A DNA stretch of 64,000 nucleotides, taken from positions 1 through 64,000 of the forward strand of contig NZ_CYSA01000008.1 of NCBI RefSeq assembly GCF_001458355.1. The letters are read 5' to 3'. The notes under the pieces are model-generated. The model ran no database searches. It was not told the DNA's origin and saw nothing but the letters and a program-made list of their open reading frames with translations. Positions 34,913 to 52,251 of the stretch are shown here, piece after piece; positions within the stretch are counted from its first letter, which is position 1, and each line of letters starts with the position of its first letter. Source of the stretch: Thalassovita gelatinovora (GTDB lineage: Bacteria > Pseudomonadota > Alphaproteobacteria > Rhodobacterales > Rhodobacteraceae). A program made the position numbers and the translations under genes.

Positions 34913-36373
34913 ATGACATCTTCTTTTCTGACGCAAATATCCTCTGGTCGTTTGGCGCAGGATGGGCTTTTGAATGACAACGCGCTTCGCGAAGCGGCCG
35001 AGCTGCTGGCCCGGATTGATGGCAGCGATCTTGAGACTGTCCGCATTGTCTTTGCAGATCAGCATGGGTTGCTGCGCGGCAAAACGGTAACCGCAGCTAG
35101 CCTCGCTTCGGTGTTTCGATCCGGCTTGAATCTACCGGCGACCTTGCTGCTCAAGGACACGTCGAACCGTACTGTTTTTCCGATCTGGGATGGAAGCACA
35201 CCGGGCGTCATGGCTACGATGGCCGGGGCAGGGGATATGCTTTTGGTTCCTGACCCGCTCACCTTCCGAATTCTGCCTTGGTCACCACATTCCGCATGGC
35301 TGTTCTGCGATCCGTATACCCGCGACGGTCAATCCCTGCCTTTCGCGCCGCGCCCGGTGTTGCGTCGCGCGGTTGAAATGTTGGATCAAAGGGGGCTTGG
35401 GCTGACGGTTGGGCTAGAGGTCGAGTTTCACGTTTTTACACGCAAGGAAGAATCCCTTAGCCATCATCATGCAGGCATGCCGGGGCAGCCGCCGCAGACT
35501 GAATTGCTGGATCAAGGCTATCAGTATTTGTCTGAGACGAATTACGACCGGCTGGAACCCGTCATGGACATGTTGCGCCGCAATGCACAGGCGCTTGGCC
35601 TTCCGGTGCGGTCGACCGAGGTAGAGATGGGGCCAAGCCAGTTCGAATTCACGTTTGAACCGGCAAGCGCCATGGCGCACGCTGATAACATGATCATGTT
35701 CCGCACCATGGTCAAAGAGGTCTGTGCGCGAGAAGGGCTGCACGCTACTTTTATGTGTCGGCCAAAAACCGCAAACAGCGCCTCTAGCGGTTGGCATTTA
35801 CATCAATCACTGACGGATGCCGAAGGAAAAAACGTCTTTATCCCATCTGAACAGGGCCAGTTGACGCCGGAAGCAAGTGCGTGGATCGCCGGGCTTTTGG
35901 CACATGCGCCGGAAAGTTGCTTGCTGACCACCCCCACCGTCAATGGCTACAAGCGGTATCAACCCTTCCAGCTTGCGCCGGACCGGATCGAATGGGGCTA
36001 TGATAATCGCGGAGCGATGGTACGCGCGTTGATGGCGCCAGGCGACGGGGCGAGCCGTGTTGAAAACCGGGTAGCCGAACCGGCTGCCAACCCCTACTTC
36101 TATTTTGCGTCACAGATCCTGTCTGGCATTTCCGGTCTGGACAAGGGCATGACCGCTCCAAGCCCGGTGGAGACGCCCTACAACAACGCTGCCGAAGCGC
36201 TGCCGCCCAGTCTGATTGCCGCAATCGAAGCGTTCGAGCGCGGCGGCCTGTTTCGCGACGTATTGGGGGACGATTTCGCCGACTATATGTCCACCCTGAA
36301 ACGGGCAGAGTGGAAGCGATATCTCAGCATCGTCACCGAATGGGAGCAACACGAATATTTCGGGATCTTTTGA
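34913..36373 (+). CDS. Glutamine-synthetase-like ligase (gamma-glutamyl-amine synthetase type)
   Basis: A 486-residue GS-fold enzyme distinct from glnA at 10239. Catalytic blocks are intact: GLTVGLEVEFHVF, VEMGPSQFEFTFEP, ASSGWHLHQSL, NGYKRYQPFQLAPDRIEWGY, and VENRVAEPAANPYFYFA. The adenylylation-site region of GlnA is absent. Relatives such as PuuA, IpuC and the aniline gamma-glutamylation enzymes ligate glutamate to an amine other than ammonia. Located right after the TRAP transporter, 3 bases from the CHMI gene, it probably activates or traps an imported amine; the amine is unknown. AAGGA precedes the ATG by 9 bases. Confidence 0.85.
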   Translation: MTSSFLTQISSGRLAQDGLLNDNALREAAELLARIDGSDLETVRIVFADQHGLLRGKTVTAASLASVFRSGLNLPATLLLKDTSNRTVFPIWDGSTPGVMATMAGAGDMLLVPDPLTFRILPWSPHSAWLFCDPYTRDGQSLPFAPRPVLRRAVEMLDQRGLGLTVGLEVEFHVFTRKEESLSHHHAGMPGQPPQTELLDQGYQYLSETNYDRLEPVMDMLRRNAQALGLPVRSTEVEMGPSQFEFTFEPASAMAHADNMIMFRTMVKEVCAREGLHATFMCRPKTANSASSGWHLHQSLTDAEGKNVFIPSEQGQLTPEASAWIAGLLAHAPESCLLTTPTVNGYKRYQPFQLAPDRIEWGYDNRGAMVRALMAPGDGASRVENRVAEPAANPYFYFASQILSGISGLDKGMTAPSPVETPYNNAAEALPPSLIAAIEAFERGGLFRDVLGDDFADYMSTLKRAEWKRYLSIVTEWEQHEYFGIF

Positions 36374-37270: not shown

Positions 37271-38500
37271 TCATACCGTAGCGTCCCAAGGGCACGCGGT
37301 ACGGCGTTGCATGTCGGATCGTTGGCTCGCGGCAAGCCAATCTTCACTGTCAGCAATCGCATCATTGGAAAGGGGGCCGATGATCTGGGGCGTTTCCTGA
37401 CGATCCTGCATTGGAAGCCGTTCGAGCTTCCCGGTTTCAACGGCCTTGATCGCCTTGCGCAGCATCAGACGATAGCGAACGATAGCTGCATCTCCGCGTC
37501 CCAAGTGTTCGCGAGTCCGGTCTTGGATCGCCCCCATACTTTCAACAGCCCATTGATCATGCACGTTGATGTCCAAACCCATGCCCGTGTAGGTCTTCGT
37601 TTTTTGTTCTTCGGGGTCATAATTATAGTTGTTCGACCGGTTTTTGAGCGGGGCGTAGTCGGGCAGACTGTGTTCTTTGAGCCGCTGCGCGCGCATGATT
37701 TCTTTGTCCACCGGATTCTGGAAGCTGGTAAACATCGTGAACCAATAGCAATTTTCATCATCGATGGGGACGTGCCACTGGGTGATGATCATTTCGCGGG
37801 ACATTGGGATGCAGATGGCTGAAGGAAAAATTTGATTGGTCACCCGGACATGGGTCAGACCGTTGGTCATGTGGCGCAACGATGTGATTTTCAGGCCGAA
37901 TGGCGTTTCATCGACGTTGATATCGGGTCGGGGATATTCGCGCAGAACCTGCGTTATCGGCATGTTGGTGTCGGCCGCCATATCCCGAAACTGCTTGCCG
38001 TAGCTGTCACTCGGGTCTTCGTCCTGAAGGAACCGGTGCAGGAACGACGCATGGCCGGGATCGATCCCAATTTCCAGCGCTTGAAGCCAATTGCATTCCC
38101 AGAGACCCTTGAACGCAAAGACATGACTTTCCGGTGCGCGGAAGCAATCAAAATTTGGGAACGCTGGCGGTTCGCCACCGCCAAGGTAGGCAAACATAAT
38201 TCCGTTCTTTTCGACCACCGGATAGATCGGTGCGCCGTCCACAACGCGGATGTCCTCAGGGGCTGGATGATGGGTCGGTGCCTCATCAGGCGAAGCGACG
38301 CGCGCAGTGAGAACAAGATCGCCCGATGCGCCCCGCATCAAGACAAGTCGTTCGCCCAGCAGGTTGACGGGCACAAGTGGCTCATCATTCGTGACCTCAT
38401 CCGAGAGCGCTGCAGGTTGCCAATAATGCCGGTGAACCGCCCCTGCAGGCGTGTTCGGGCCAATACGAGTGATCTGGTCGTTCAGTTTTTGAGTGATCAT
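37271..38500 (-). CDS. Rieske-type oxygenase catalytic subunit lacking the [2Fe-2S] ligands
   Basis: A 409-residue protein aligned with VanA/phthalate-dioxygenase-type alpha subunits: IGPNTPAGAVHRHYWQPAAL at the start, then VNLLGERLVLMRGASGDLVL, then LWECNWLQALEIGIDPGHAS and FLH. Asp147, His150 and His155 reproduce the D-x2-H-x4-H spacing of the mononuclear iron site and electron-bridging Asp. But the segment between the LVLMRGASGDL strand and GIMFAYLG, where C-x-H and C-x2-H normally sit, has no cysteine; the first Cys in the protein is residue 119. The cluster must come in trans, most likely from the preceding gene, whose stop overlaps this start (ATGA). Probable N- or O-demethylase or ring hydroxylase; substrate unknown. 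Confidence 0.85.
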   Translation of the reverse strand: MITQKLNDQITRIGPNTPAGAVHRHYWQPAALSDEVTNDEPLVPVNLLGERLVLMRGASGDLVLTARVASPDEAPTHHPAPEDIRVVDGAPIYPVVEKNGIMFAYLGGGEPPAFPNFDCFRAPESHVFAFKGLWECNWLQALEIGIDPGHASFLHRFLQDEDPSDSYGKQFRDMAADTNMPITQVLREYPRPDINVDETPFGLKITSLRHMTNGLTHVRVTNQIFPSAICIPMSREMIITQWHVPIDDENCYWFTMFTSFQNPVDKEIMRAQRLKEHSLPDYAPLKNRSNNYNYDPEEQKTKTYTGMGLDINVHDQWAVESMGAIQDRTREHLGRGDAAIVRYRLMLRKAIKAVETGKLERLPMQDRQETPQIIGPLSNDAIADSEDWLAASQRSDMQRRTACPWDATV

Positions 38501-38937
38501 GCGTTTGGTCCTTTGGGAAGTGATTGGTTCGATTCGTCATTGTTCTCGATGGCAGGGGCAGACCCTTCGCCAAACCATGCCAGAATATCCCCATTCTGCT
38601 CGATGACAGTGTAGCTTGGCAAACGGATCGCCTTGTACATGGTCGAATCCTCGGGTTCGGCGGGTTGTTCGGTGCATTGACCCGAGCGGTCGAAATGCCA
38701 GCCGTGGAACGGGCAGCGCAGACCATTGTCTTCATGTCGACCAAAGCAGAGATCGGCACCGCGATGGGGGCAATATCTTCCGATCAGGCCGAGCTGGCCT
38801 TCTTCGTCACGGAAAAGAACAAGGTCCTGACCGAATGCTGTAACCGCTGCGACGGGGCGGGTGCCCTGCAACGCTTCTGCGCTTGCGATCTTGACCCAAG
38901 TCGTTGGCGAAGCTTCGGTTCGCATCGTTTGGCTCAT
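38497..38937 (-). CDS. Stand-alone Rieske [2Fe-2S] domain protein
   Basis: A 146-residue protein formed by a single Rieske domain. Ligands: Cys56 and His58 in CPHRGADLCFG, Cys75 and His78 in CPFHGWHF. The flanks (LVLFRDEEGQLGLIGRYCPH and SGQCTEQPAEPEDSTMYKAI) look like the Rieske part of a VanA-type oxygenase alpha subunit, not a separate ferredoxin. It is the first gene of the operon, start codon after GAGGAGAAAACC, and overlaps the catalytic gene by ATGA, suggesting 1:1 production. It probably forms the missing half of the oxygenase and takes electrons from the flavodoxin encoded divergently. Confidence 0.88.
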   Translation of the reverse strand: MSQTMRTEASPTTWVKIASAEALQGTRPVAAVTAFGQDLVLFRDEEGQLGLIGRYCPHRGADLCFGRHEDNGLRCPFHGWHFDRSGQCTEQPAEPEDSTMYKAIRLPSYTVIEQNGDILAWFGEGSAPAIENNDESNQSLPKGPNA

Positions 38938-39261: not shown

Positions 39262-40482
39262 ATGACCGCTAAAGTCGCCATAATAGGTGCTGGTCCGTCT
39301 GGATGTTATACTGCGCAAGCGTTGTTGAAAATGGATCCCGATCTAGAGGTTGATGTCATTGACGCGCAGCCAACGCCCTTTGGGCTGGTGCGCTATGGCG
39401 TGGCGGCTGATCATCAGGGAACCAAGGGGGTGGCACGGCAGTTTGCCCGGATTTTTATCCGCCAGAAAGCGCGTTTCTTCGGCAATATCCGGATCGGGGA
39501 GCAGGTGACGCTTGGTGAATTGCAGGATGCCTATGACGCGGTCGTCATTGCCGCGGGGCTCTCCGGGGACCGTCGCCTTGGTATTCCCGGCGATGACCTT
39601 CCCGGCATCATCGGATCAGGATCGTTGACACGCGCGCTTTATGAACACCCCGATGCAGCCGCTTTGCCCGAACTTGGCCAAGATCCGGTAATCATCGGCA
39701 CAGGGAACGTGGCCATTGATGTTCTCCGGCTGTTAGCCAAAACTCCCGAAGAGCTAAGGGGCAGTGATTTGGGCGACGGGCCGACGGCGTGGCTGGCGGC
39801 GCATAAGTTTCGTAAAATCACTGTCGTTGGCCGATCTTCCGCTGGGGCAGCGCGGTTCTCCCCGGTGCTGCTTAAGGAATTGGCGGATTTGTCGGCTATA
39901 GACGTAAGCGTCATGCATCCGGGATCGGCCAATGACGAAGAAGGCAAGCGTCGTTTAGAGGCGCTGGCTGAGTTGGTAGCGGCAACATCCGGACCAGTTC
40001 AGGTTGATTTCCACTTTGATAGCTGTCCGATTGCGATCGAAGACGTTTCGACCGGTTTGAAGCTAGATGTCGAAACGCCAGAGGGCAGGCAAAGCCTTTT
40101 GGCCTCTTCGATTATCACGGCCATCGGTTTTACCTCGGATGGTTCGCTGGACCGCGATACCATGTTGGACAGCGCCCAAGATCGCATGCGGCCAGAAAAT
40201 CGGACCTATACAATCGGTTGGTTCCGAAATGGCCCAGTCGGGGCAATCCCGAAATGTCGTGAAGATGCACAAGCCTTGGCCCAACGGGTCATGTCAGAGC
40301 TTCAGCCCGATCCCGACCGAATTGGGCGCAACCTGTTCGAAACAGTGCCAGACATCGTCGGCTTTGATCATTGGCAACGGGTCGACGCTCTGGAGCTGTC
40401 AACGGCCCCAGACGACCGCTGTCGTCGCAAAATTTTCCACAAGGCGGAGCTGCTTCGCCCTTCTAACCTTCAGGACGCTTGA
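39262..40482 (+). CDS. Adrenodoxin-reductase-type NADPH:ferredoxin/flavodoxin reductase
   Basis: A 406-residue FAD protein of the FprA/adrenodoxin reductase family: VAIIGAGPSGCYTAQALLKM for FAD, QPTPFGLVRYGVAADHQGTK, then VIIGTGNVAIDVLRLLAKTP for NADPH, and the C-terminal GWFRNGPVGAIPKCREDAQA. It should move electrons from NADPH to a small carrier, here presumably the flavodoxin encoded 3 bases downstream. The ATG at 39262 is chosen because GGGGGA lies just upstream; ATG at 39250 is possible. Divergent from the split oxygenase operon, so it is the likely source of reducing power for it. Confidence 0.88.
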   Translation: MTAKVAIIGAGPSGCYTAQALLKMDPDLEVDVIDAQPTPFGLVRYGVAADHQGTKGVARQFARIFIRQKARFFGNIRIGEQVTLGELQDAYDAVVIAAGLSGDRRLGIPGDDLPGIIGSGSLTRALYEHPDAAALPELGQDPVIIGTGNVAIDVLRLLAKTPEELRGSDLGDGPTAWLAAHKFRKITVVGRSSAGAARFSPVLLKELADLSAIDVSVMHPGSANDEEGKRRLEALAELVAATSGPVQVDFHFDSCPIAIEDVSTGLKLDVETPEGRQSLLASSIITAIGFTSDGSLDRDTMLDSAQDRMRPENRTYTIGWFRNGPVGAIPKCREDAQALAQRVMSELQPDPDRIGRNLFETVPDIVGFDHWQRVDALELSTAPDDRCRRKIFHKAELLRPSNLQDA

Positions 40483-40485
40483 AAC

Positions 40486-40956
40486 ATGAACATCGCAATT
40501 CTGTTCGGGACCGAAACCGGCAACGCCGAAATGTTGGCCGAAGATATTTCTTCTGCACTGGAGGACGAACACCAGACCCGTTTTGCCAATTTGCAAGATA
40601 CCGGTCCCAGTGAGTTGCGCGATGCAGAGCTGAACATCATCGTATGCTCCTCCTACGGAGATGGAGAATTGCCTGCATCCGCCAAGCCTTTTGCTGATCG
40701 CTTGCGAGAAGAGCAAACCGATCTGGATGGTGTGCGTTTTGCCATGTTTGGATTGGGCGATGGGGAATATGCCACCACCTTCGGTCATGGGTCCATGAAG
40801 TTGGCCGAAATGCTGATCGGGCGAGGCGCTGAAATTGTCGGCGAAAGGTTGGTCCATGATGCATCTGGGGATGATCTGCCCGAAGACATCGCTATTCCTT
40901 GGGCAGAGGCGATTTTGGCAAGCGGCAACGCCGCTGCTGCATCGACTGCTGAGTAG
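40486..40956 (+). CDS. Flavodoxin
   Basis: A 156-residue FMN electron carrier. The FMN phosphate loop FGTETGNAEMLAEDI is at the start; SSYGDGELPASAKPFADRL and FAMFGLGDGEYATTFGHGSM give the loops that stack on the flavin. Immediately follows the FprA-like reductase and is probably translated with it. Flavodoxin-like domains serve some P450 systems (cindoxin for P450cin); a flavodoxin serving a Rieske oxygenase would be unusual, and here the separate Rieske protein could be the next carrier. Confidence 0.9.
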   Translation: MNIAILFGTETGNAEMLAEDISSALEDEHQTRFANLQDTGPSELRDAELNIIVCSSYGDGELPASAKPFADRLREEQTDLDGVRFAMFGLGDGEYATTFGHGSMKLAEMLIGRGAEIVGERLVHDASGDDLPEDIAIPWAEAILASGNAAAASTAE

Positions 40957-41775: not shown

Positions 41776-42633
41776 TTATTTTTGCGCGGAAATCGCTGCA
41801 TCTGCGACATTTTTAAACAGCAACGCGGTGGTGACCGGGCCGACGCCATCGGGGACATCGGTCACGGTCAGATCCATCCCGGCGCAGGCTGCTAGGTCGA
41901 GATCGCCGACAAGCCCCTCTGAGCCGCGGTTGATCGATACGTCTAGAACCACAGTGCCCGGCGCGAGGTGAGCAGGAGTGATCAGTCCGGGAACGCCGGC
42001 GGCAGTCACCACGATTTCGGCGCGCCTTGTATGGGCAACCAGATCCTTGGTGTCGACATGGGTGACGGTGACGGTGGCACCGGCGTCGAGCAGCAGATGG
42101 GCAAGTGGCCGCCCGACGATGCGCGAAGCCCCAACCAGCGTGACTTCGCGACCAGTAAGGGAACCGGCCAGTTCTTCGGCGATTAGTCGGCAGGCCATTG
42201 CCGTTGCCGGGGGGCGCGCCGGGGCACCGAGGGCGAGCAGACCGGCGTTCAGCGGGTGCTGTCCGTCAATGTCTTTGGCAGCGCCCAGCGTCAGGGCGGC
42301 TTCCAGCGGATCAAGCCCGGTGGGAAGCGGGTGGAGCGCCGCCACTGCATCGATCTCGGCGTTGCTGCTATTCTCTTTTAGCTGCGCAAGAGTGGCGGCG
42401 GCGGTCGCAGGGTAGGGGACGAGCGTTAGCTTGATCCCGGCCTCGGCCGCCAAGCTCTGTTGCCGCCGTCCATAGGCCGCCATACCCGCATTCGTTGGAT
42501 CCTGAAGGACTCGAAGGTGTGGTGCGCGGGTAAGTGTGACAAGCGTTGCTCGTGTTTCGGCATTGATCCGGGCGGCAAGATCGATGCCGGTCCAAATTCT
42601 TGGGGCGGATTGTTCAGAGGGTTGAAGAGACAT
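41776..42633 (-). CDS. FolD-like methylenetetrahydrofolate dehydrogenase, cyclohydrolase lysine missing
   Basis: A 285-residue FolD homologue. The dinucleotide domain VTLVGASRIVGRPLAHLLLD and the KDIDGQHPLNAGLL segment are intact. The catalytic Tyr-x3-Lys of bifunctional FolD is altered: Tyr54 is kept but the Lys position is Gln58 (AAYGRRQQSL). That Lys is needed for cyclohydrolase activity, so a dehydrogenase-only role is inferred. The N-terminus also differs from typical FolD. It overlaps the upstream iclR by 20 bases and so shares its transcript. A normal FolD lies at 50555 in the divergent operon. Confidence 0.82.
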   Translation of the reverse strand: MSLQPSEQSAPRIWTGIDLAARINAETRATLVTLTRAPHLRVLQDPTNAGMAAYGRRQQSLAAEAGIKLTLVPYPATAAATLAQLKENSSNAEIDAVAALHPLPTGLDPLEAALTLGAAKDIDGQHPLNAGLLALGAPARPPATAMACRLIAEELAGSLTGREVTLVGASRIVGRPLAHLLLDAGATVTVTHVDTKDLVAHTRRAEIVVTAAGVPGLITPAHLAPGTVVLDVSINRGSEGLVGDLDLAACAGMDLTVTDVPDGVGPVTTALLFKNVADAAISAQK

Positions 42634-43656: not shown

Positions 43657-44442
43657 ATGCCTCTCACCATCTGGTCCGACCTTAAAACAACTGATTTCGC
43701 TAGGATAAACCCGGCGACCGCCGTGGCGCTTCTACCCGTCGGCGCGACCGAACAGCATGGTCCACACCTGCCGCTATCTACGGATTCGATTTTGGGCGAA
43801 GGCGTGGCCCGGCTGGCAGCGGCCAAGACCGGAGCGGATGTTTACCTCCTGCCGACCGTGACCTATACGAAATCAGACGAACACTTGTCCTATCCGGGCA
43901 CGCTGACTCTGGATGCCGAGACTTTACTGGCAACGCTGACACAGATCGGAAAAAGCGTGGCGCGCTCAGGGGTGCGAAAGCTGGTAATCCTGAACGCCCA
44001 TGGCGGAAATGTGCCGGTTTTGGGGATTCTTGCCCGAAAGCTTCGAATTGAAGACGGTCTACTGGTGGTGACTGCTGGCTGGATGTCGATGGGCTTTCCT
44101 GATGGGCTTATTTCGGCGGAAGAACGACGCGACGGGATCCACGGAGGCTTGGTCGAGACTGCGGCCATGCTGCATTTCCGCCCCGATCTGGTGGATATGG
44201 GCGCAGCGCAGGATTTTGTTCCTGCTTCGCGTGCAGTGGCCGAAAACAATCAGATCCTTCGTATTCTGGGCCCGGTGGGCACCGGTTGGATTTCAGAGGA
44301 CCTGCATCCGGCAGGGGTGGCGGGCAATGCCGCCGCCGCAACGTCCGAGATAGGGTCCGCGTTGGTAGAGCATGCCGCCGAACGCTATGCGCTGCTTCTG
44401 GAAGAAGTGGCGGCGCATCCGCAGCCGGGAGACGGGGTATGA
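43657..44442 (+). CDS. Creatininase-family amidohydrolase
   Basis: A 261-residue metal-dependent enzyme. The signature LLPVGATEQHGPHLPLSTDS holds the Glu, His and Asp metal ligands; LNAHGGNVPVLGIL and GIHGGLVETAAMLHFRPDLV are also conserved. Family members open creatinine to creatine or hydrolyse other cyclic or formamide-type amides. The known creatininase residues for creatinine cannot be checked by eye, so the substrate is open. First gene of the nine-gene operon; the stop overlaps the next gene (ATGA). Confidence 0.85.
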   Translation: MPLTIWSDLKTTDFARINPATAVALLPVGATEQHGPHLPLSTDSILGEGVARLAAAKTGADVYLLPTVTYTKSDEHLSYPGTLTLDAETLLATLTQIGKSVARSGVRKLVILNAHGGNVPVLGILARKLRIEDGLLVVTAGWMSMGFPDGLISAEERRDGIHGGLVETAAMLHFRPDLVDMGAAQDFVPASRAVAENNQILRILGPVGTGWISEDLHPAGVAGNAAAATSEIGSALVEHAAERYALLLEEVAAHPQPGDGV

Positions 44443-45716
44443 CGATGAACCGAGCAACGGTGGGCGATACCGTTTTGCGAAATCTTCATGTGCCGGCGAC
44501 TTTGTTGGATGGGTTTTCCGGGTCAAAAGCCGAAAAGTCAGGATTGGTTCCGGTGGATTTGGCGATACGCGACGGCCGTTTCTTTCCGGCGGTGCCCGGA
44601 AAGGACGGACAGGATATGGGCGGGCGCATTCTGTTGCCCGGTTTCGTGGATATGCATGTTCATATCGATAAAGCTTACACTGTGCATCGTACCGGGTTTT
44701 CCCAACGCGGGTTGGGGCATGCTGTAGAATTGTCGATGAGCGACAGTCCGAACCGGACAGTTGACGACATGATCGAACGGATGGAACGTTCGTTGGTTGC
44801 GGCCGAAAAACATGGCACCGTGGCTATGCGTACCCATCTGGACACGCTTGATGCCCCCGAACAGAGCCCCGCATGGATCGCCTATGGCGAGATGAAGCGC
44901 GCCTGGAAGGGCCGGATCAAGCTTCAAGCTGTGGCGCTGATGGCGCTTTCACGGGTCGAAGAAGAAGCCTTTGCCCACCGCTGTGCTCAGGTCGCGGAGA
45001 GGGGGGGCATTCTGGGGGCCTTCATCGACACCAAGATGGCGACGCCAGAACGGCTGGATATCTATCTGGGTCATGCGATGGATCACGGGCTCGATCTGGA
45101 TCTACATTTGGACGAAACGGTGGATCCCGACGCAGATGGGCTTGGCCGATTGCTCGAGGGGGTCGTGCGCAAGGGCTATCAAGGCCGGATCGTCGCAGGC
45201 CATTGTTGCGCACTGGCGCAAAAAACAGTGACTGAGCAGAATGCGTTGATTGCTAAAGTGGCAGAGGCGGGAGTGCACGTGGTGTCTCTGCCGCTTTCGA
45301 ACGGGTTTCTTCAGGATCGCGCGCCGCACCGAACCAAGCGGATGGTCGGTCTTGCCCCGGTGCAAGAACTGGCGGCGGCAGGCGTTAATGTTGCTTTCGC
45401 CTCTGACAATGTGCGCGACGCGTTCTACCCCTATGGGACTTATGACATGCTCGAAGTGCAACGGTCGGGCACGTTCCTTGGACAGCTGGAAGCCGATCCA
45501 GGGCGCTGGATCGAAGCCGTGACACGCGCTCCGGCTCTGGCGATGGGGCTCGCGGATGCCGGGTGTATCCGTGCCGGTGGTCCGGCGGATGGGGTGATCT
45601 TCGAGGCATGGGACTGGGCTGACCTTTACAGCGGCATCGGGCTTGAACGCTCGGTCTTCCGAGGCGGACGGATGCTGAGTGCCGCTGCCGGATTCAAGAC
45701 AAGGGAGCATGCCTGA
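44439..45716 (+). CDS. Cytosine-deaminase-type amidohydrolase
   Basis: A 425-residue amidohydrolase-superfamily protein: LLPGFVDMHVHIDKAYTVHR (HVHIDK metal site), TVAMRTHLDTLDAPE, LDLDLHLDETVDPDADGLGR with the catalytic HLDE, RIVAGHCCALAQK and NVAFASDNVRDAFYPYGTYD for the last metal ligand. This pattern is that of the cytosine/creatinine deaminase and isopropylammelide hydrolase group, which remove amino groups from N-heterocycles. With the creatininase before it, a creatinine- or hydantoin-like ring is possible but unproven. ATG at 44439 overlaps the previous stop; ATG at 44445 is an alternative. Confidence 0.85.
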   Translation: MTMNRATVGDTVLRNLHVPATLLDGFSGSKAEKSGLVPVDLAIRDGRFFPAVPGKDGQDMGGRILLPGFVDMHVHIDKAYTVHRTGFSQRGLGHAVELSMSDSPNRTVDDMIERMERSLVAAEKHGTVAMRTHLDTLDAPEQSPAWIAYGEMKRAWKGRIKLQAVALMALSRVEEEAFAHRCAQVAERGGILGAFIDTKMATPERLDIYLGHAMDHGLDLDLHLDETVDPDADGLGRLLEGVVRKGYQGRIVAGHCCALAQKTVTEQNALIAKVAEAGVHVVSLPLSNGFLQDRAPHRTKRMVGLAPVQELAAAGVNVAFASDNVRDAFYPYGTYDMLEVQRSGTFLGQLEADPGRWIEAVTRAPALAMGLADAGCIRAGGPADGVIFEAWDWADLYSGIGLERSVFRGGRMLSAAAGFKTREHA

Positions 45717-47101
45717 TGGCGGATTTGATCGCTTTACGCGACGCGCTGTCCGGATTCGATCTGGACGAAAACCCGAATTCCGTGCAGCGGAAAAGCCGGG
45801 ATTTCTATTGGTATAGCCCGGTCCTGATGGAGCAGTTAAAAGATGTCTGCGCCGATCTGGTGGTGACGCCGAAGGACGAGGCCGAGCTGATCGAGATCCT
45901 GAAAATCTGCTATGCCCATGACGTGCCGGTTACGACGCGCGGGGCAGGAACGGGCAATTATGGCCAGGCGATGCCGCTTGAGGGCGGGGTGGTTCTACAC
46001 ATGAAGCACATGACCGCGATCAAGAGCATTGCGGATGGCGTATTGGTGGCCGAGGCTGGCGCCATCATAAAGAATCTGGAAATTGCCGCGCGCGAGGCAG
46101 GAACGGAGCTGCGGCTGTTTCCGTCGACTACCGCGATGGCCACGCTGGGCGGCTTCATCGCCGGCGGTTCTTCGGGGATCGGAGCGATCCGCTGGGGTGG
46201 ACTGCGCACACCGGGCAATATCCTTCGGGTGCGGCTGGTCACGATGGAGGCCGAGCCACGCATCATCGAGCTGACTGGTGACGATGTTTTCAAGGCGGCC
46301 CATGCATATGGGGTGAATGGGGTGATCACCGAAATCGAGATACCGGTTGATCCCGCTGTCGACTGGTGTGACGTGCTGATTGGGGCGCCGGATTTTACCA
46401 CCGCCACGAAGATTTCTTTCGCAATTGGCGAGGCCGAGACGATCACAAAACGCATGGTTTCGACCTTCGAGGCCGAGATCCCGGCAGCCTATTTCAACCG
46501 CTACACCGAATTCACCGTGCCCGGCGAAGCTGTGGTCGCCGTGATCGTGGCGCGCGCGGATCTGGAAAAGCTGGAAACTCTGATCGACGAAACGGGTGGC
46601 AGCATGCGGTTTCGGGCCGACCGTGACATCGGAGATCGAAGACTTCCTGCGGTCTATGAATATTGCTGGAACCATACGACGTTGCGCGCGCTCAAGGTGG
46701 ATCCGTCGCTATCTTATCTGCAAATGATGCTGCCCCATGACGACCTTTACAGCGCGATTGCGCGGGTAAAGGCCGATTTCGGGGACGAATTGATCCTGCA
46801 TTTCGAAATGACGATCTTCGCTGGCAAGGTAACCGCCATGTGTATGCCGGTTCTACGCTATACCAGCGCCGAAAGGCTGGAACAGCTGATAGTCACGCTG
46901 GAACACGATTATGGCGTGATCGTCTTTAATCCGCACCGTGTAACCCTGGAAGAAGGCGGGATGAAAAAGACCGACCCCTCCCAGCTGCAATTCAAGCGCG
47001 AAACCGATCCTAAGGGACTGCTCAATCCCGGCAAGATGATTGCCTGGACTGATCCAGACTGGCGGCCGGAACCGGGTCGCGCCTACCTGTTTAACCGCTA
47101 A
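45716..47101 (+). CDS. FAD-linked oxidase (FAD_binding_4, GlcD-like)
   Basis: A 461-residue VAO-fold flavoenzyme. FAD site: VVTPKDEAELIEILKICYAH, VTTRGAGTGNYGQAMPLEGG and FPSTTAMATLGGFIAGGSSG. The C-terminal part, ending KETDPK-like GLLNPGKMIAW, matches glycolate/lactate oxidase-type proteins. It probably oxidises a hydroxy- or amino-acid intermediate of the pathway. Its start shares a base with the amidohydrolase stop (TGATG), so translation is coupled. Confidence 0.82.
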   Translation: MADLIALRDALSGFDLDENPNSVQRKSRDFYWYSPVLMEQLKDVCADLVVTPKDEAELIEILKICYAHDVPVTTRGAGTGNYGQAMPLEGGVVLHMKHMTAIKSIADGVLVAEAGAIIKNLEIAAREAGTELRLFPSTTAMATLGGFIAGGSSGIGAIRWGGLRTPGNILRVRLVTMEAEPRIIELTGDDVFKAAHAYGVNGVITEIEIPVDPAVDWCDVLIGAPDFTTATKISFAIGEAETITKRMVSTFEAEIPAAYFNRYTEFTVPGEAVVAVIVARADLEKLETLIDETGGSMRFRADRDIGDRRLPAVYEYCWNHTTLRALKVDPSLSYLQMMLPHDDLYSAIARVKADFGDELILHFEMTIFAGKVTAMCMPVLRYTSAERLEQLIVTLEHDYGVIVFNPHRVTLEEGGMKKTDPSQLQFKRETDPKGLLNPGKMIAWTDPDWRPEPGRAYLFNR

Positions 47102-47114
47102 TTCGAGGCGCACC

Positions 47115-47696
47115 ATGAAAGTACACGTCATCTACGCCCATCCGCTTGAGGACAGTCTTGCTGGCACGCTCCACAAAACCGTTGTCGACAGCCTGACCGA
47201 AGCCGGTCATCAGGTGGACGATCTCAATCTCTATGCAGAGCATTTTGATCCGGTCCTATCGGCCGAGGATCGCAAGGAATACCACGATGTCAGCATCAAC
47301 CGCATCAAAGTCGCCGCTTATGTAGATCGGTTGGAAAGCTGCGACGCGCTGGTTTTGTGCCATCCGGTGTGGAATTTTGGCTGGCCAGCGATCCTGAAGG
47401 GCTACTTTGACCGGATATTCCTGCCGGACGTGTCCTTCAAGTTGCGCGACGGCGAACTTCGTCCGGGGCTGACGAATATCAAGAAACTCGCAACGGTCAC
47501 GACTTATGGAGCAAAACGCCATCGGGCATTCGTTCTGGGCGACCCGCCGCGCAAGAATGGCACCCGCTTTCTACGTGTGGTTTGCGACCCGCGCGTGAAG
47601 GTACAGTATCACGCGCTCTATGACATGAACAATGTCACCGAAGCGCGCGCCGGTGCCTTCATCAAAAAAGTTCGTCAGGCCATGCTGAAGTTCTGA
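47115..47696 (+). CDS. NAD(P)H:quinone oxidoreductase (Flavodoxin_2 fold)
   Basis: A 193-residue FMN/FAD reductase: MKVHVIYAHPLEDSLAGTLH with HQVDDLNLYAEHFDP, SCDALVLCHPVWNFGWPAIL and KGYFDRIFLPDVSFKL. The family (MdaB/NQO1/KefF-like) reduces quinones or feeds electrons to partner enzymes. In this operon it may re-oxidise NAD(P)H with a quinoid intermediate or assist the FAD-linked oxidase; not decidable. GAGGCGCACC before ATG at 47115. Confidence 0.82.
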   Translation: MKVHVIYAHPLEDSLAGTLHKTVVDSLTEAGHQVDDLNLYAEHFDPVLSAEDRKEYHDVSINRIKVAAYVDRLESCDALVLCHPVWNFGWPAILKGYFDRIFLPDVSFKLRDGELRPGLTNIKKLATVTTYGAKRHRAFVLGDPPRKNGTRFLRVVCDPRVKVQYHALYDMNNVTEARAGAFIKKVRQAMLKF

Positions 47697-47716
47697 GCTG
47701 TAGAAAGGAACCAGCT

Positions 47717-48496
47717 ATGTCCTCATCACCTCAGACACCGATGGAAGCGCCCGCGCCGGGCGGAAACGCCATCGTTTTTGATAATGTCTCGATGACTTTT
47801 CCGGACGGAACCGAGGGGCTGAAAGGCACCGACCTCGCGATCCGACCTGGTGAGTTCGTTTCGGTTGTCGGGCCTTCTGGCTGCGGAAAATCGACACTCC
47901 TGAAGGTCGCCTCGGGGCTTGTGAGGCATACCGGCGGAGAGGTCTGGGTAGACCGAGCGCAGCTGGGGTATACCTTTCAGGATGCGACACTGCTGCCTTG
48001 GCGCAAGGTGATCGATAATGTTGCGTTGCTGATGGAACTGCGTGGCTATCCTGCCGCCGAGCGCCGACGTATCGCACAAGAGAAGATCGAGTTGGTCGGG
48101 CTGAAAGGCTTCGAGAACTCCTACCCGCAGCGGCTCTCTGGCGGCATGAAGATGCGTGCATCTCTGGCTCGTTCCCTGGCATTGAATCCGGCCGTTTTCA
48201 TGTTTGATGAACCTTTTGGCGCCCTCGACGAAATCACGCGGGAACGGCTCAACGACGAGGTGATCGAGTTCTACACGCGTGAAGGCTTCACCGGGATATT
48301 CATAACCCACTCCATCCCGGAAGCTGTCTATATGTCGTCCAAAGTGGTCGTCATGTCGGCTCGTCCGGGCCGGATCGTGGCCCAGTTCGATATTCCCTTC
48401 GCCTATCCGCGTCACCCTGATCTTCGCTACGAACCTGAATTTTCAAAACTCAGCGGAGAGGTTTCTAAAGCCCTTCGCGCCGCTATCGAGGGATGA
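47717..48496 (+). CDS. ABC transporter ATP-binding protein, nitrate/taurine type
   Basis: A 259-residue ATPase of the SsuB/TauB/NrtD class: Walker A GPSGCGKST, Q-loop YTFQDATLLPWRKV, signature LSGGMKMRASLARSL, Walker B VFMFDEPFGALDE and switch His in FITHSIPEAV. Stop overlaps the permease start by ATGA. Together with the permease and binding protein it imports the substrate of this operon. Confidence 0.94.
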   Translation: MSSSPQTPMEAPAPGGNAIVFDNVSMTFPDGTEGLKGTDLAIRPGEFVSVVGPSGCGKSTLLKVASGLVRHTGGEVWVDRAQLGYTFQDATLLPWRKVIDNVALLMELRGYPAAERRRIAQEKIELVGLKGFENSYPQRLSGGMKMRASLARSLALNPAVFMFDEPFGALDEITRERLNDEVIEFYTREGFTGIFITHSIPEAVYMSSKVVVMSARPGRIVAQFDIPFAYPRHPDLRYEPEFSKLSGEVSKALRAAIEG

Positions 48497-49353
48497 CCAT
48501 GTCCGAAATCGCCAAAAAGGCCAAGGTCGAGGTCTATCCGCCGCAGCCGGTGCCGACACCCCCGACGCTGACCAAGAGGCTGATACTCAATCTGATGCCA
48601 CCAGTGATCCTGGGGATCGGGGTTATTATCGCCTATGCACTGGTGCGCAATTCGCTACCACCGCACCGGCAGTTCCTGATGCCCTCGGCCGGGGGGCTTT
48701 GGGAACTGGCGCTCGGGCTGCCGGATTTCCGCCGCGAACTTCTTGCGCGGACCGGGGTGACAATTGGGATTGCTTTGACCGGTTTGGCCGTGACTATTCC
48801 CACGGCGATCGCCGTAGGCATCATCATGTTTCGCTTCTATACGCTTGAAAAGGCTATATTTCCTTTCCTTGTTGCTCTGCAATCCGTCCCGGTCATGGCG
48901 ATCATCCCACTGATTCAAAGCGCGCTTGGTTTCGGGCTGGCACCAAAGGTTTTGATCGTCGTTTTGTTCACATTCTTTGCGATCCCGACGACTCTTCTTC
49001 TGGGGCTGAAAAGCGTTGATAAGAACATCCTAAACCTGTTCCGTTTGCAGGGGGCGAGTTGGTGGGTGATGCTGCGCAAAGCCTGTTTTCCTTCGGCAGC
49101 CCCAACGCTTTTTGCTGGATTAAAGATTTCGGGATCATTGGCGGTGATTGCTGCGATCGTGTCGGAGCTTTTCTTCCTGTCTGGCGAGGGTGGCCTCGGG
49201 CAGCTTCTGATGAATTCGAAAATCGATTTCAAATACGAGCAGATGTATGCCGCTCTGATCGCGTCCTCGATACTGTCGATTTCCGTCTATCTCCTCTTCA
49301 ACTGGCTGGGGAACCGGCTTTTTTCACACTGGCATGAATCATCTGAGAAGTAG
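48493..49353 (+). CDS. ABC transporter permease, nitrate/taurine type
   Basis: A 286-residue BPD_transp_1 membrane protein with six hydrophobic segments, including LILNLMPPVILGIGVIIAYA, FPFLVALQSVPVMAIIPLIQ, and KVLIVVLFTFFAIPTTLLLG. The coupling region GLKSVDKNILNLFRLQGASW with WVMLRKACFPSAAP matches the EAA loop. ATG at 48493 overlaps the ATPase stop; ATG at 48499 is possible. Confidence 0.92.
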   Translation: MTMSEIAKKAKVEVYPPQPVPTPPTLTKRLILNLMPPVILGIGVIIAYALVRNSLPPHRQFLMPSAGGLWELALGLPDFRRELLARTGVTIGIALTGLAVTIPTAIAVGIIMFRFYTLEKAIFPFLVALQSVPVMAIIPLIQSALGFGLAPKVLIVVLFTFFAIPTTLLLGLKSVDKNILNLFRLQGASWWVMLRKACFPSAAPTLFAGLKISGSLAVIAAIVSELFFLSGEGGLGQLLMNSKIDFKYEQMYAALIASSILSISVYLLFNWLGNRLFSHWHESSEK

Positions 49354-50554: not shown

Positions 50555-51409
50555 ATGCGCGGCATAATGCAGGCACGGATTCTGGACGGGGACGCGTTGG
50601 CCGCGCGATTGCGGGAAAATATGAAAACGGAGGTCGCGGGACTGAAATCCCGCGGTATCCAGCCCAAATTGGTAACGATCTTGGTCGGCGATAATCCCGA
50701 CAGCGCCACTTATATCGGGCGCAAACATGCTGATTGCACCGAGCTGGGGATCGATTCTGTCGATATACGGCTGCAAGAAACAACCACCGAGGTCGAATTG
50801 ATGGCGCTGGTGGCTGACTTCAACGCTGACCCGGCGGTGCAAGGGTTGATGGTGCAAATACCGCTGCCGGAACATCTTGATGACGATGCGGTCAAGGCAG
50901 CGGTTCTACCGGAAAAAGACATCGACGGATTGCACCCGGAAAACCTCGGTCGATTGTTGGCTGGCAATCCGGGTCTGATATCTTGCACGCCGGATGCGAT
51001 CCTGACGCTTCTGCGCGCCTATGACGTGCCGCTTGCCGGTCGTAACGTGACGATTGTCGGGCGTGGCCAATTGGTCGGCCGACCACTTGCGATGCTGTTG
51101 TCGATGAAAGGCATAGATGCGGATGTGACGCTGCTACATTCCCATTCCACAGATATTCCAGCGCGACTGCGCGAAGCTGATGTGATCGTTGCGGCCTGTG
51201 GCCAACCCGGATTCGTCACGGCCGATATGGTTAAACCCGGAGCTGCGGTGGTAGGTGTCGGCATCACTTATGATGCTAGCGGTGCGATGATGTCGGATGT
51301 GGCACAAGACGTGGCCGGGGTCGCGGGCTGGGTCACGCCGCCCCATGGTTCGGTCGGGCCGCTGACAAGGGCTATGCTGCTCAAGAACCTTCTGATTGCG
51401 GCAGGTTGA
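50555..51409 (+). CDS. folD: Bifunctional methylenetetrahydrofolate dehydrogenase / cyclohydrolase FolD
   Basis: Interconverts 5,10-methylene-THF, methenyl-THF and 10-formyl-THF in the cytosol. The 284-residue protein keeps the catalytic Tyr-x3-Lys (ATYIGRKHADCTELGI), the LMVQIPLPEHLDD and PEKDIDGLHPENLGRL motifs, and the dinucleotide domain RNVTIVGRGQLVGRPLAMLL; note GRGQLVG where GRSxIVG is common. GGAG lies eight bases before the ATG. Placed between the transporter and a MetF-like gene, it probably processes C1 units released by this pathway rather than serving general metabolism. Confidence 0.92.
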   Translation: MRGIMQARILDGDALAARLRENMKTEVAGLKSRGIQPKLVTILVGDNPDSATYIGRKHADCTELGIDSVDIRLQETTTEVELMALVADFNADPAVQGLMVQIPLPEHLDDDAVKAAVLPEKDIDGLHPENLGRLLAGNPGLISCTPDAILTLLRAYDVPLAGRNVTIVGRGQLVGRPLAMLLSMKGIDADVTLLHSHSTDIPARLREADVIVAACGQPGFVTADMVKPGAAVVGVGITYDASGAMMSDVAQDVAGVAGWVTPPHGSVGPLTRAMLLKNLLIAAG

Positions 51410-51411
51410 AC

Positions 51412-52251
51412 GTGGCTGTCGCTGCTTCGATAGAAATCCCGCCAGCACGCGTGCTGGAAATGCAGGATCTGGCTGCGGTGCTGCCCAAGGGCGTACGTGT
51501 TTATCTGCCCGAATTGGGTACGGACAATAACGAAACTTTCGTTGCCGCAGCCTGCGCCTTGCGCGCAATCGGGGCCGAACCGGTGCCGCATCTTGCCGCG
51601 CGCCGGATCGCCTCGCACGCTGCCCTTGAGGCAAGGGTCGCGCGGCTTGCAAGTGAGGCAGGGGTGACGGATGTGCTGGTTCTGGCCGGTAGCCCGCCTT
51701 CGCCGGAAGGCCCGTTTGCCGATTCCATGAAAATCTTGGAAACAGGTGTGTTGGATCGGCATGGGATCACCCATATCGGGGTCGCAGGCCATCCGGAAGG
51801 AAGCCCGCATTTTACAGATGAGGTGGTTCAGAACGCGATGCGCTGGAAGGCGGATTTCGCCATGCGCAGTGACGCCGAGATGCGCATTGTCACCCAGTTT
51901 GGTTTTGATGTGGCGGGGATGGTCCGCTGGTCAGAAGAGATAGCCGCATCAGGGATCACCCTACCTGTACATCTGGGGTTTGCCGGGCCTACAAAACTGC
52001 GTGCGATGCTGCGCTATGCTCGGTCCTGCGGGGTTGGGCCTTCAATGCAGGTGCTGACATCTCGCGGCAATGCGCTGTTGCGTCTTTTTGCAGGCTATGC
52101 CCCCGAACCGTTGGTGCGGGAACTTGAAACTGCATTGGCCAGAATGAAGACGGGCAATATCGCTCAGATCCACCTTTACCCTTTTGGCGGATCCGAGCGC
52201 ACGGCCAACTGGCTGCGCGCCCGGGGAAGCTGGCCCGAGATAAGCGCCTAG
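51412..52251 (+). CDS. Methylenetetrahydrofolate reductase family protein (MetF-like)
   Basis: A 279-residue MTHFR-fold protein: SIEIPPARVLEMQDLAAVLP, where Glu corresponds to the active-site Glu of the SFEFFPP motif; then PHLAARRI, DVLVLAGSPPSPEGPFADS and HIGVAGHPEGSPHFTDEVVQ. Classic MetF uses FAD to make 5-methyl-THF; here several segments diverge, so it might instead run as an oxidase of methyl-THF or bind another folate. GTG at 51412 is chosen for AGG six bases upstream; the TTG at 51406 would overlap the folD stop. Last gene of the operon. Confidence 0.8.
   Translation: MAVAASIEIPPARVLEMQDLAAVLPKGVRVYLPELGTDNNETFVAAACALRAIGAEPVPHLAARRIASHAALEARVARLASEAGVTDVLVLAGSPPSPEGPFADSMKILETGVLDRHGITHIGVAGHPEGSPHFTDEVVQNAMRWKADFAMRSDAEMRIVTQFGFDVAGMVRWSEEIAASGITLPVHLGFAGPTKLRAMLRYARSCGVGPSMQVLTSRGNALLRLFAGYAPEPLVRELETALARMKTGNIAQIHLYPFGGSERTANWLRARGSWPEISA

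Follow-up and report, generated by a model that had tools for sequence, protein, structure and literature searches.

A putative division of the Rieske oxygenase alpha subunit into a cluster-less catalytic protein and a free Rieske protein in Thalassovita gelatinovora and related bacteria

Introduction

Rieske oxygenases carry their cluster and their catalytic iron in one chain and work across the subunit boundary, with electrons crossing from one subunit's cluster to the iron of its neighbor, an arrangement in which the two centers are hard to vary separately. Three-component oxygenases of the naphthalene and carbazole type additionally have a small free Rieske ferredoxin, which serves a terminal oxygenase with its own cluster. 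Among aniline degradation genes, a glutamine-synthetase-like ligase is found with a Rieske oxygenase, and the oxygenase of such aromatic-amine systems is not known to be divided. The same association of ligase and oxygenase is described for 1-naphthylamine degradation (PMC11335346). For isophthalate dioxygenase IPDO-KF1 of Comamonas testosteroni KF1 (PDB 9INA), PMC12445078 gives a cluster-to-iron distance of 12.5 Å between neighboring subunits and of 45 Å within one subunit, and a review describes an aspartate as connecting the neighboring subunit's Rieske cluster with the iron site (PMC12445004). In the caffeine N7-demethylase NdmCDE of Pseudomonas putida CBB5 (PMC4408171), NdmC has no Rieske cluster, the reductase NdmD bears an extra Rieske domain, and the GST-like NdmE is required for solubility and activity and is postulated to align NdmC and NdmD.

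A 64,000-nucleotide stretch of DNA from Thalassovita gelatinovora (the window) was analyzed here, and it holds three neighboring genes encoding a small Rieske protein (P0001), a large catalytic protein (P0002), and a third protein (P0003). With IPDO-KF1 and the alpha subunits of the phthalate-dioxygenase type, the large protein shares the catalytic domain, the iron ligands, and the bridging aspartate; in contrast, the Rieske ligands of IPDO-KF1 lie in the same chain. As in the three-component oxygenases, a small free Rieske protein stands beside a terminal oxygenase, but the ferredoxin is an extra component there, whereas here the small protein would be, by descent, the oxygenase's own Rieske domain. 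A glutamine-synthetase-like ligase adjoins the oxygenase, as described for 1-naphthylamine degradation. The closest likeness is to NdmCDE, whose NdmC and NdmD had been named as precedent in a preliminary description of the locus: a cluster-less catalytic protein and a Rieske domain on another polypeptide (both recognized here by sequence), together with a third protein, fill the same roles with other parts. The two systems differ in the Rieske domain, which is free here and fused to the reductase NdmD there, and in the third protein, which appears PCC-derived here and is GST-like there. By analogy, the split system would work like NdmCDE, although two defining features of NdmCDE are lacking.

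Results

The small protein P0001 (38497..38937, minus strand; ATG at 38937, stop at 38497) has 146 aa and consists of a complete oxygenase-type Rieske [2Fe-2S] domain with the ligands C56, H58, C75, and H78, spaced as C-x-H-x16-C-x2-H; the ligand stretch from C56 to H78 (CPHRGADLCFGRHEDNGLRCPFH) occupies 38704..38772 on the minus strand. Both statements of the preliminary description on this gene hold, namely that these four residues are encoded by the overlapping upstream gene and that the domain is a free small protein, the reductase being encoded separately. P0001 ends and P0002 begins within a shared ATGA, a 4-bp overlap. Pfam assigned P0001 to Rieske PF00355 (1.5e-21), and its top PDB matches were oxygenase alpha subunits (7fhr, 1.9e-31), with the ferredoxin 2qpz at 1.9e-4. 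The small proteins of the split loci formed one clade (SH-aLRT 99) in a tree in which they made up 26 of 85 rows, on 120 columns only. Judged from the PDB ranking and this tree, P0001 is a descendant of an oxygenase and not of ferredoxins.

The large protein P0002 (37271..38500, minus strand; 409 aa) is a predicted catalytic oxygenase subunit that lacks the cluster ligands and keeps the Rieske base together with the catalytic domain. Its first cysteine is residue 119, and neither C-x-H nor C-x2-H occurs anywhere in the chain. Pfam matched it to LigXa_C PF19301 (1.4e-26, 93.8 bits against a cut-off of 27), with weaker matches to Aromatic_hydrox and VanA_C and with no Rieske model; the Rieske model is thus confined to the small protein, as the preliminary description had expected, and the possibility it had raised that P0002 might not be a Rieske-oxygenase catalytic domain is answered by the LigXa_C match. 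The nearest solved relative is 9INA (2.5e-44) and the full-length relatives are of the phthalate-dioxygenase type; by these matches, P0002 is a catalytic protein of the isophthalate/phthalate-dioxygenase type. When P0002 was compared to 9INA, phmmer returned two separate aligned segments: residues 4-67 matched the beginning of the Rieske domain, and residues 93-390 matched the catalytic domain. Between residues 67 and 93, it is 26 residues shorter than 9INA, in which all four cluster ligands sit in that stretch, and by a MAFFT alignment it is about 29 residues shorter there than its full-length relatives. The site of the missing residues, placed by phmmer and MAFFT, corresponds to 38222..38302 on the minus strand, its exact edges being uncertain. 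MAFFT puts the C-x2-H pair of the full-length proteins and the GWHFDRTGQC that follows it into the gap, again with uncertain edges, and sets their C-x-H pair opposite the unrelated P0002 residues A69 and P71; in a joint alignment of small and large proteins, it also placed the small ones onto the Rieske remnant of P0002, which makes that alignment unsuitable. P0002 looks like an alpha subunit of about 438 aa that retains its Rieske base but is about 29 residues short and has none of the four cluster ligands. Loss of the whole Rieske domain was considered and is ruled out, since its base can still be aligned. The earlier view of P0002 as a protein without a Rieske domain consequently stands with respect to the ligands and to the absence of cysteine before residue 119, and gives way with respect to residues 4-67.

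Regarding the iron site, the published ligands of 9INA were mapped onto P0002 with the chain and paper numbering taken to differ by 23 throughout, an inferred offset that fits all four positions. H150 and H155 (codons within 38036..38053, minus strand) correspond to the iron ligands H177 and H182 of 9INA, and D315 (37556..37558, minus strand) corresponds to the third ligand, D337. The preliminary description had assigned Asp147, His150, and His155 to the iron site; the two histidines are retained, whereas D147 (38060..38062, minus strand) aligns with D174 of 9INA, the aspartate bridging the Rieske histidine and an iron ligand (PMC12445078), and the third ligand is D315. D147, H150, H155, and D315 were invariant in 36 chosen aligned rows (19 split, 17 full-length). 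Of the hints in the sequence for a cluster docking at the normal position on P0002, the best is that the bridging aspartate stays invariant although the protein has no cluster of its own.

When compared to related loci, the division proved to be conserved. The preliminary description had suggested looking for the gene pair in other genomes, and the same division was found at 29 of 29 split loci, which hold 26 distinct large proteins: every small protein has C-x-H-x16-C-x2-H, and every large protein lacks the Rieske ligands and keeps D-x2-H-x4-H. The motif comparison set comprised 109 full-length loci, duplicates included. A sequencing error or a lost segment that would restore the ligands, raised beforehand as a way in which the reading could fail, is ruled out by their absence from all 29 loci. 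By record title, the split contigs among the best 80 of 589 relatives were mainly Rhodobacterales, besides a single Mesorhizobium and a single Granulosicoccaceae MAG. Cultured hosts of the operon include Pseudooceanicola marinus and Alloyangia pacifica. At the family level (394 genomes), 46 genomes had a P0002 relative at 1e-60, one each, of which 10 were of split and 36 of full-length shape; the loci were read for 30 of these (10 split, 20 full-length), and for the remaining 16, the full-length assignment comes from match shape and frame length only. Both forms together occurred in none of the 394 genomes, which is weak evidence by itself because only about one co-occurrence would be expected by chance. 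At the class level (385 genomes), 34 genomes matched: the window's own, 28 with the full-length form, one with a fragment, and four without a locus read (three of them weak). Additionally, 23 plasmid records matched, and of three that were examined, two carried the split form (Pseudooceanicola algae and Palleronia) and one the full-length form. In the Palleronia plasmid, the small gene was missing from the PLSDB gene table and was found by tblastn. In the records of Pseudooceanicola algae and Palleronia, the large protein bears the label of an ordinary ring-hydroxylating dioxygenase alpha subunit and P0003 is entered as a hypothetical protein, and since both split records carry the former label, annotations of such proteins should be read with caution.

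The third protein, P0003 (36748..37236, minus strand; 162 aa), which the preliminary description had overlooked, was found only with the split form. It was detected at 1e-5 in 10 of the 394 family genomes, the same 10 that have the split form and none of the 36 with full-length shape; among loci of at least 5 kb, it was present in 20/20 split and 0/56 full-length loci, and at 1e-3 the only one of the 385 class genomes to have it was the window's own. P0003 had no significant Pfam, NCBIfam, or PDB profile match, nor any Pfam match at E 10 (PF03479 included), and PCC was not among the Pfam matches of 20 P0003 relatives at E 1. When 390 order genomes were searched with a profile of these 20 relatives, six matched at 1e-5. 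Four of these were split genomes (G000, G222, G240, G926), the fifth (G875) is a candidate match whose locus ends short of the oxygenase, and the sixth (G969) encodes a two-domain, tandem PCC protein of 288 aa with no split oxygenase within 19.9 kb. The G969 protein matched tandem proteins of four genomes that had been found with PF03479 (tblastn 3.7e-28 to 8.6e-52, single loci); four of these five tandem proteins match PCC PF03479 in Pfam, the G969 protein being the exception. The P0003 profile aligned with the five tandem proteins in hhalign (94.1%, 1.3e-7, 131 columns), and, in a single comparison, the Mesorhizobium relative of P0003 aligned with the G969 protein at 6e-13 over 192 columns, reaching into the second domain. 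Because of this profile alignment and the match of the Mesorhizobium relative, P0003 is best described as a shortened, diverged PCC protein derived from tandem PCC-domain proteins, a kinship established through profile comparison and relatives. H110 and H112 are invariant in the five tandem proteins, and each is kept in 1/20 P0003 relatives, a loss that argues for a structural role of P0003. PCC proteins are typically trimers; of the five PDB sequences matched for PCC, 2h6l and 3htn have three chains per entry and the other three have one.

Two further observations concern this protein family. Tandem PCC proteins are encoded in Alphaproteobacteria (L148/L149:9638-10501, L151-L155), with lengths of about 275-293 aa and scores just above or below the Pfam cut-off, one lying below detection, and by eye their genes adjoin apparent acyl-CoA ligases (L148, L152-L155) or, in L149, a TRAP permease. 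Separately, P0003 was considered as a relic of a duplicated oxygenase, a candidate ruled out by an hhalign probability of 0.2% against the oxygenase alignment.

A gene of the glutamine-synthetase family (34913..36373, plus strand), convergent in the window, neighbors both forms of the oxygenase: it was found beside 20/20 split and 55/56 full-length loci, the one exception ending near a contig end. In a glutamine-synthetase tree of 75 rows, the loci change between split and full-length five times, at least four of these changes being forced by the starred branches, compared to one change in the oxygenase tree. Full-length oxygenases occupy window-like operons in Celeribacter ethanolicus (L091:8001-11200) and Thalassovita taeanensis (L097:8001-10845), whose genes are 83% and 82% (glutamine synthetase), 85% (TRAP permease), and 76% (IclR) identical to those of the window. 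This exchange in place suggests that both forms do the same job. On the other side of the pair, a divergent FAD/NAD(P) pyridine-nucleotide reductase (39262..40482, plus strand) and a flavodoxin (40486..40956, plus strand), the proposed electron source and the proposed carrier to P0001 in the window's subclade, stand beside the window's pair and 6/20 other split loci (two of them Pseudooceanicola marinus strains) and beside 0/56 full-length loci. A plant-type ferredoxin accompanies 5/56 full-length loci (one being the query source) and 0/20 split loci. At most, these distributions hint that the split is accompanied by a different electron donor in the window's subclade.

As for the wider surroundings, two genes resembling FolD and one resembling MTHFR lie at 41776-42633 and 50555-52251 of the window, and they suggest release of C1 units, bound to folate, from a demethylation step; one of the FolD-like genes, when searched in the other loci, was found in 1/20 split and 0/56 full-length loci. 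At 43657-49353, a creatininase-family protein, an amidohydrolase, and an FAD-linked oxidase are encoded in a row, followed by ABC transporter genes, possibly a catabolic operon for a nitrogen-containing compound. Homarine, considered as the substrate, was dropped, as a literature search gave it no support.

Concerning origin, the large proteins of the split loci form one clade nested among the full-length ones (support 100/100, 100% of 200 bootstrap trees; 26 of 74 rows), in a tree computed without the cluster block, with L138 as a long-branched outgroup and with poor support for the nearest sister of the split clade. A single nested clade indicates that the split is one old, maintained event. 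The large and the small proteins each form one clade, a pattern that fits one duplication with complementary loss in the two copies. The rates at loci L031-L034 (dN/dS about 0.16 for the small, 0.12 for the large, and 0.21 for the P0003 gene) point to purifying selection on each of the three genes, the ratios being rough because several dS values, above all those of pairs with the window, far exceed 1 or could not be computed.

Discussion

It is very likely that the cluster is supplied to P0002 in trans, whether within a stable complex or by a shuttling protein. Within that reading, we lean towards a three-protein Rieske oxygenase whose alpha subunit is divided and whose small protein supplies the cluster in trans as part of a complex; complex formation, its geometry, the electron route, and the role of P0003 are all inferred from the sequences and their comparison. 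One copy of a duplicated gene would have kept the catalytic domain and the Rieske base, lost the cluster-binding part, and become the large gene, and the second copy would have kept only the complete Rieske domain and become the small gene. The large protein would most likely still build the C3 ring of its oxygenase family with the cluster position empty. Three small proteins would fill the cluster positions, so that the [2Fe-2S] cluster would come to lie where the Rieske domain of the neighboring subunit normally sits, about 12 Å from the iron, and electrons would pass from it to the iron through D147. P0003 probably fastens the small protein to the ring, a part like the one postulated for NdmE between NdmC and NdmD. 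Electrons would run, in the window's subclade, from NAD(P)H through the FAD reductase, the flavodoxin, and the small protein to the iron. Some points count against parts of this proposal: P0002 keeps its own Rieske base, and a whole small protein must fit without clash; P0003 itself does not match PF03479; and the low share of split loci that have the reductase and flavodoxin beside them speaks against the electron route. The fullest version, in which cluster-less subunits form an alpha3 ring, three Rieske proteins plug into it, a PCC-derived trimer caps and holds them, and flavodoxin feeds the whole, is possible but less likely than not, although a P0003 trimer capping a C3 ring is an appealing idea. 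If this plug-in architecture were true, Rieske modules could be exchanged, with the cap taking the part of the beta subunits in alpha3-beta3 enzymes.

The small protein could alternatively be a diffusing carrier that resembles a Rieske ferredoxin and docks briefly on the large protein, with P0003 having another task, such as maturation or stability. We regard this as possible but unlikely. The small protein is indeed free, and within the window's subclade the genes have the soluble flavodoxin and FAD reductase as neighbors. Outside the cluster stretch, the small protein also drifts faster than the corresponding parts of the full-length proteins: mean identities of the two flanking base parts are 0.60 and 0.48 among small proteins, compared to 0.72 and 0.63 among full-length proteins and 0.54 and 0.36 between the sets. 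The cluster stretch itself has mean identities of 0.87 among small proteins, 0.80 among full-length proteins, and 0.80 between small and full-length proteins, the higher value of the small proteins being partly due to the wider range of hosts in the full-length set; the faster drift of the base parts runs against that bias. Descent from an oxygenase and not from ferredoxins speaks against the carrier, as does the 4-bp overlap of the small and large genes in 18/29 split loci (15/26 distinct), and the constant presence of P0003 suggests assembly.

A division of labor in which the large protein is independent of any Rieske cluster, either taking electrons directly from the flavodoxin or carrying out another reaction while the small protein serves a different oxygenase, is considerably less probable than the in-trans supply of the cluster. 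It would agree with the missing cluster, with the nearby flavodoxin, and with the six PF00355 matches in the window's genome, P0001 included, which show that other Rieske proteins are at hand. These others are only 25-35% identical to P0001, however, and the small and large genes are adjacent in 29/29 split loci with gaps of -4 to 66 bp; moreover, D147, at the position known to link the Rieske histidine to the iron, is invariant. Finally, the large protein could be a dead paralogue or scaffold in an operon that has lost its oxygenase activity, decay being commonly marked by the loss of a cofactor-binding part. This is scarcely credible given the kept iron ligands, the purifying selection, the presence of P0003 in every split locus examined for it, and a single origin followed by spread to several host families and several glutamine-synthetase lineages.

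The divided enzyme that we favor would give biology a second answer, possibly an independent one, to the problem solved by NdmCDE. An exact-phrase search of the open-access literature returned no paper on a split or cluster-less Rieske oxygenase with a free Rieske subunit, an absence that weighs little. The split system also suggests that a PCC-derived protein may take part in assembling an oxygenase. With a natural split, the redox state of the cluster, its docking, and the stoichiometry could be set independently, and the model of electron transfer between subunits would become directly testable.
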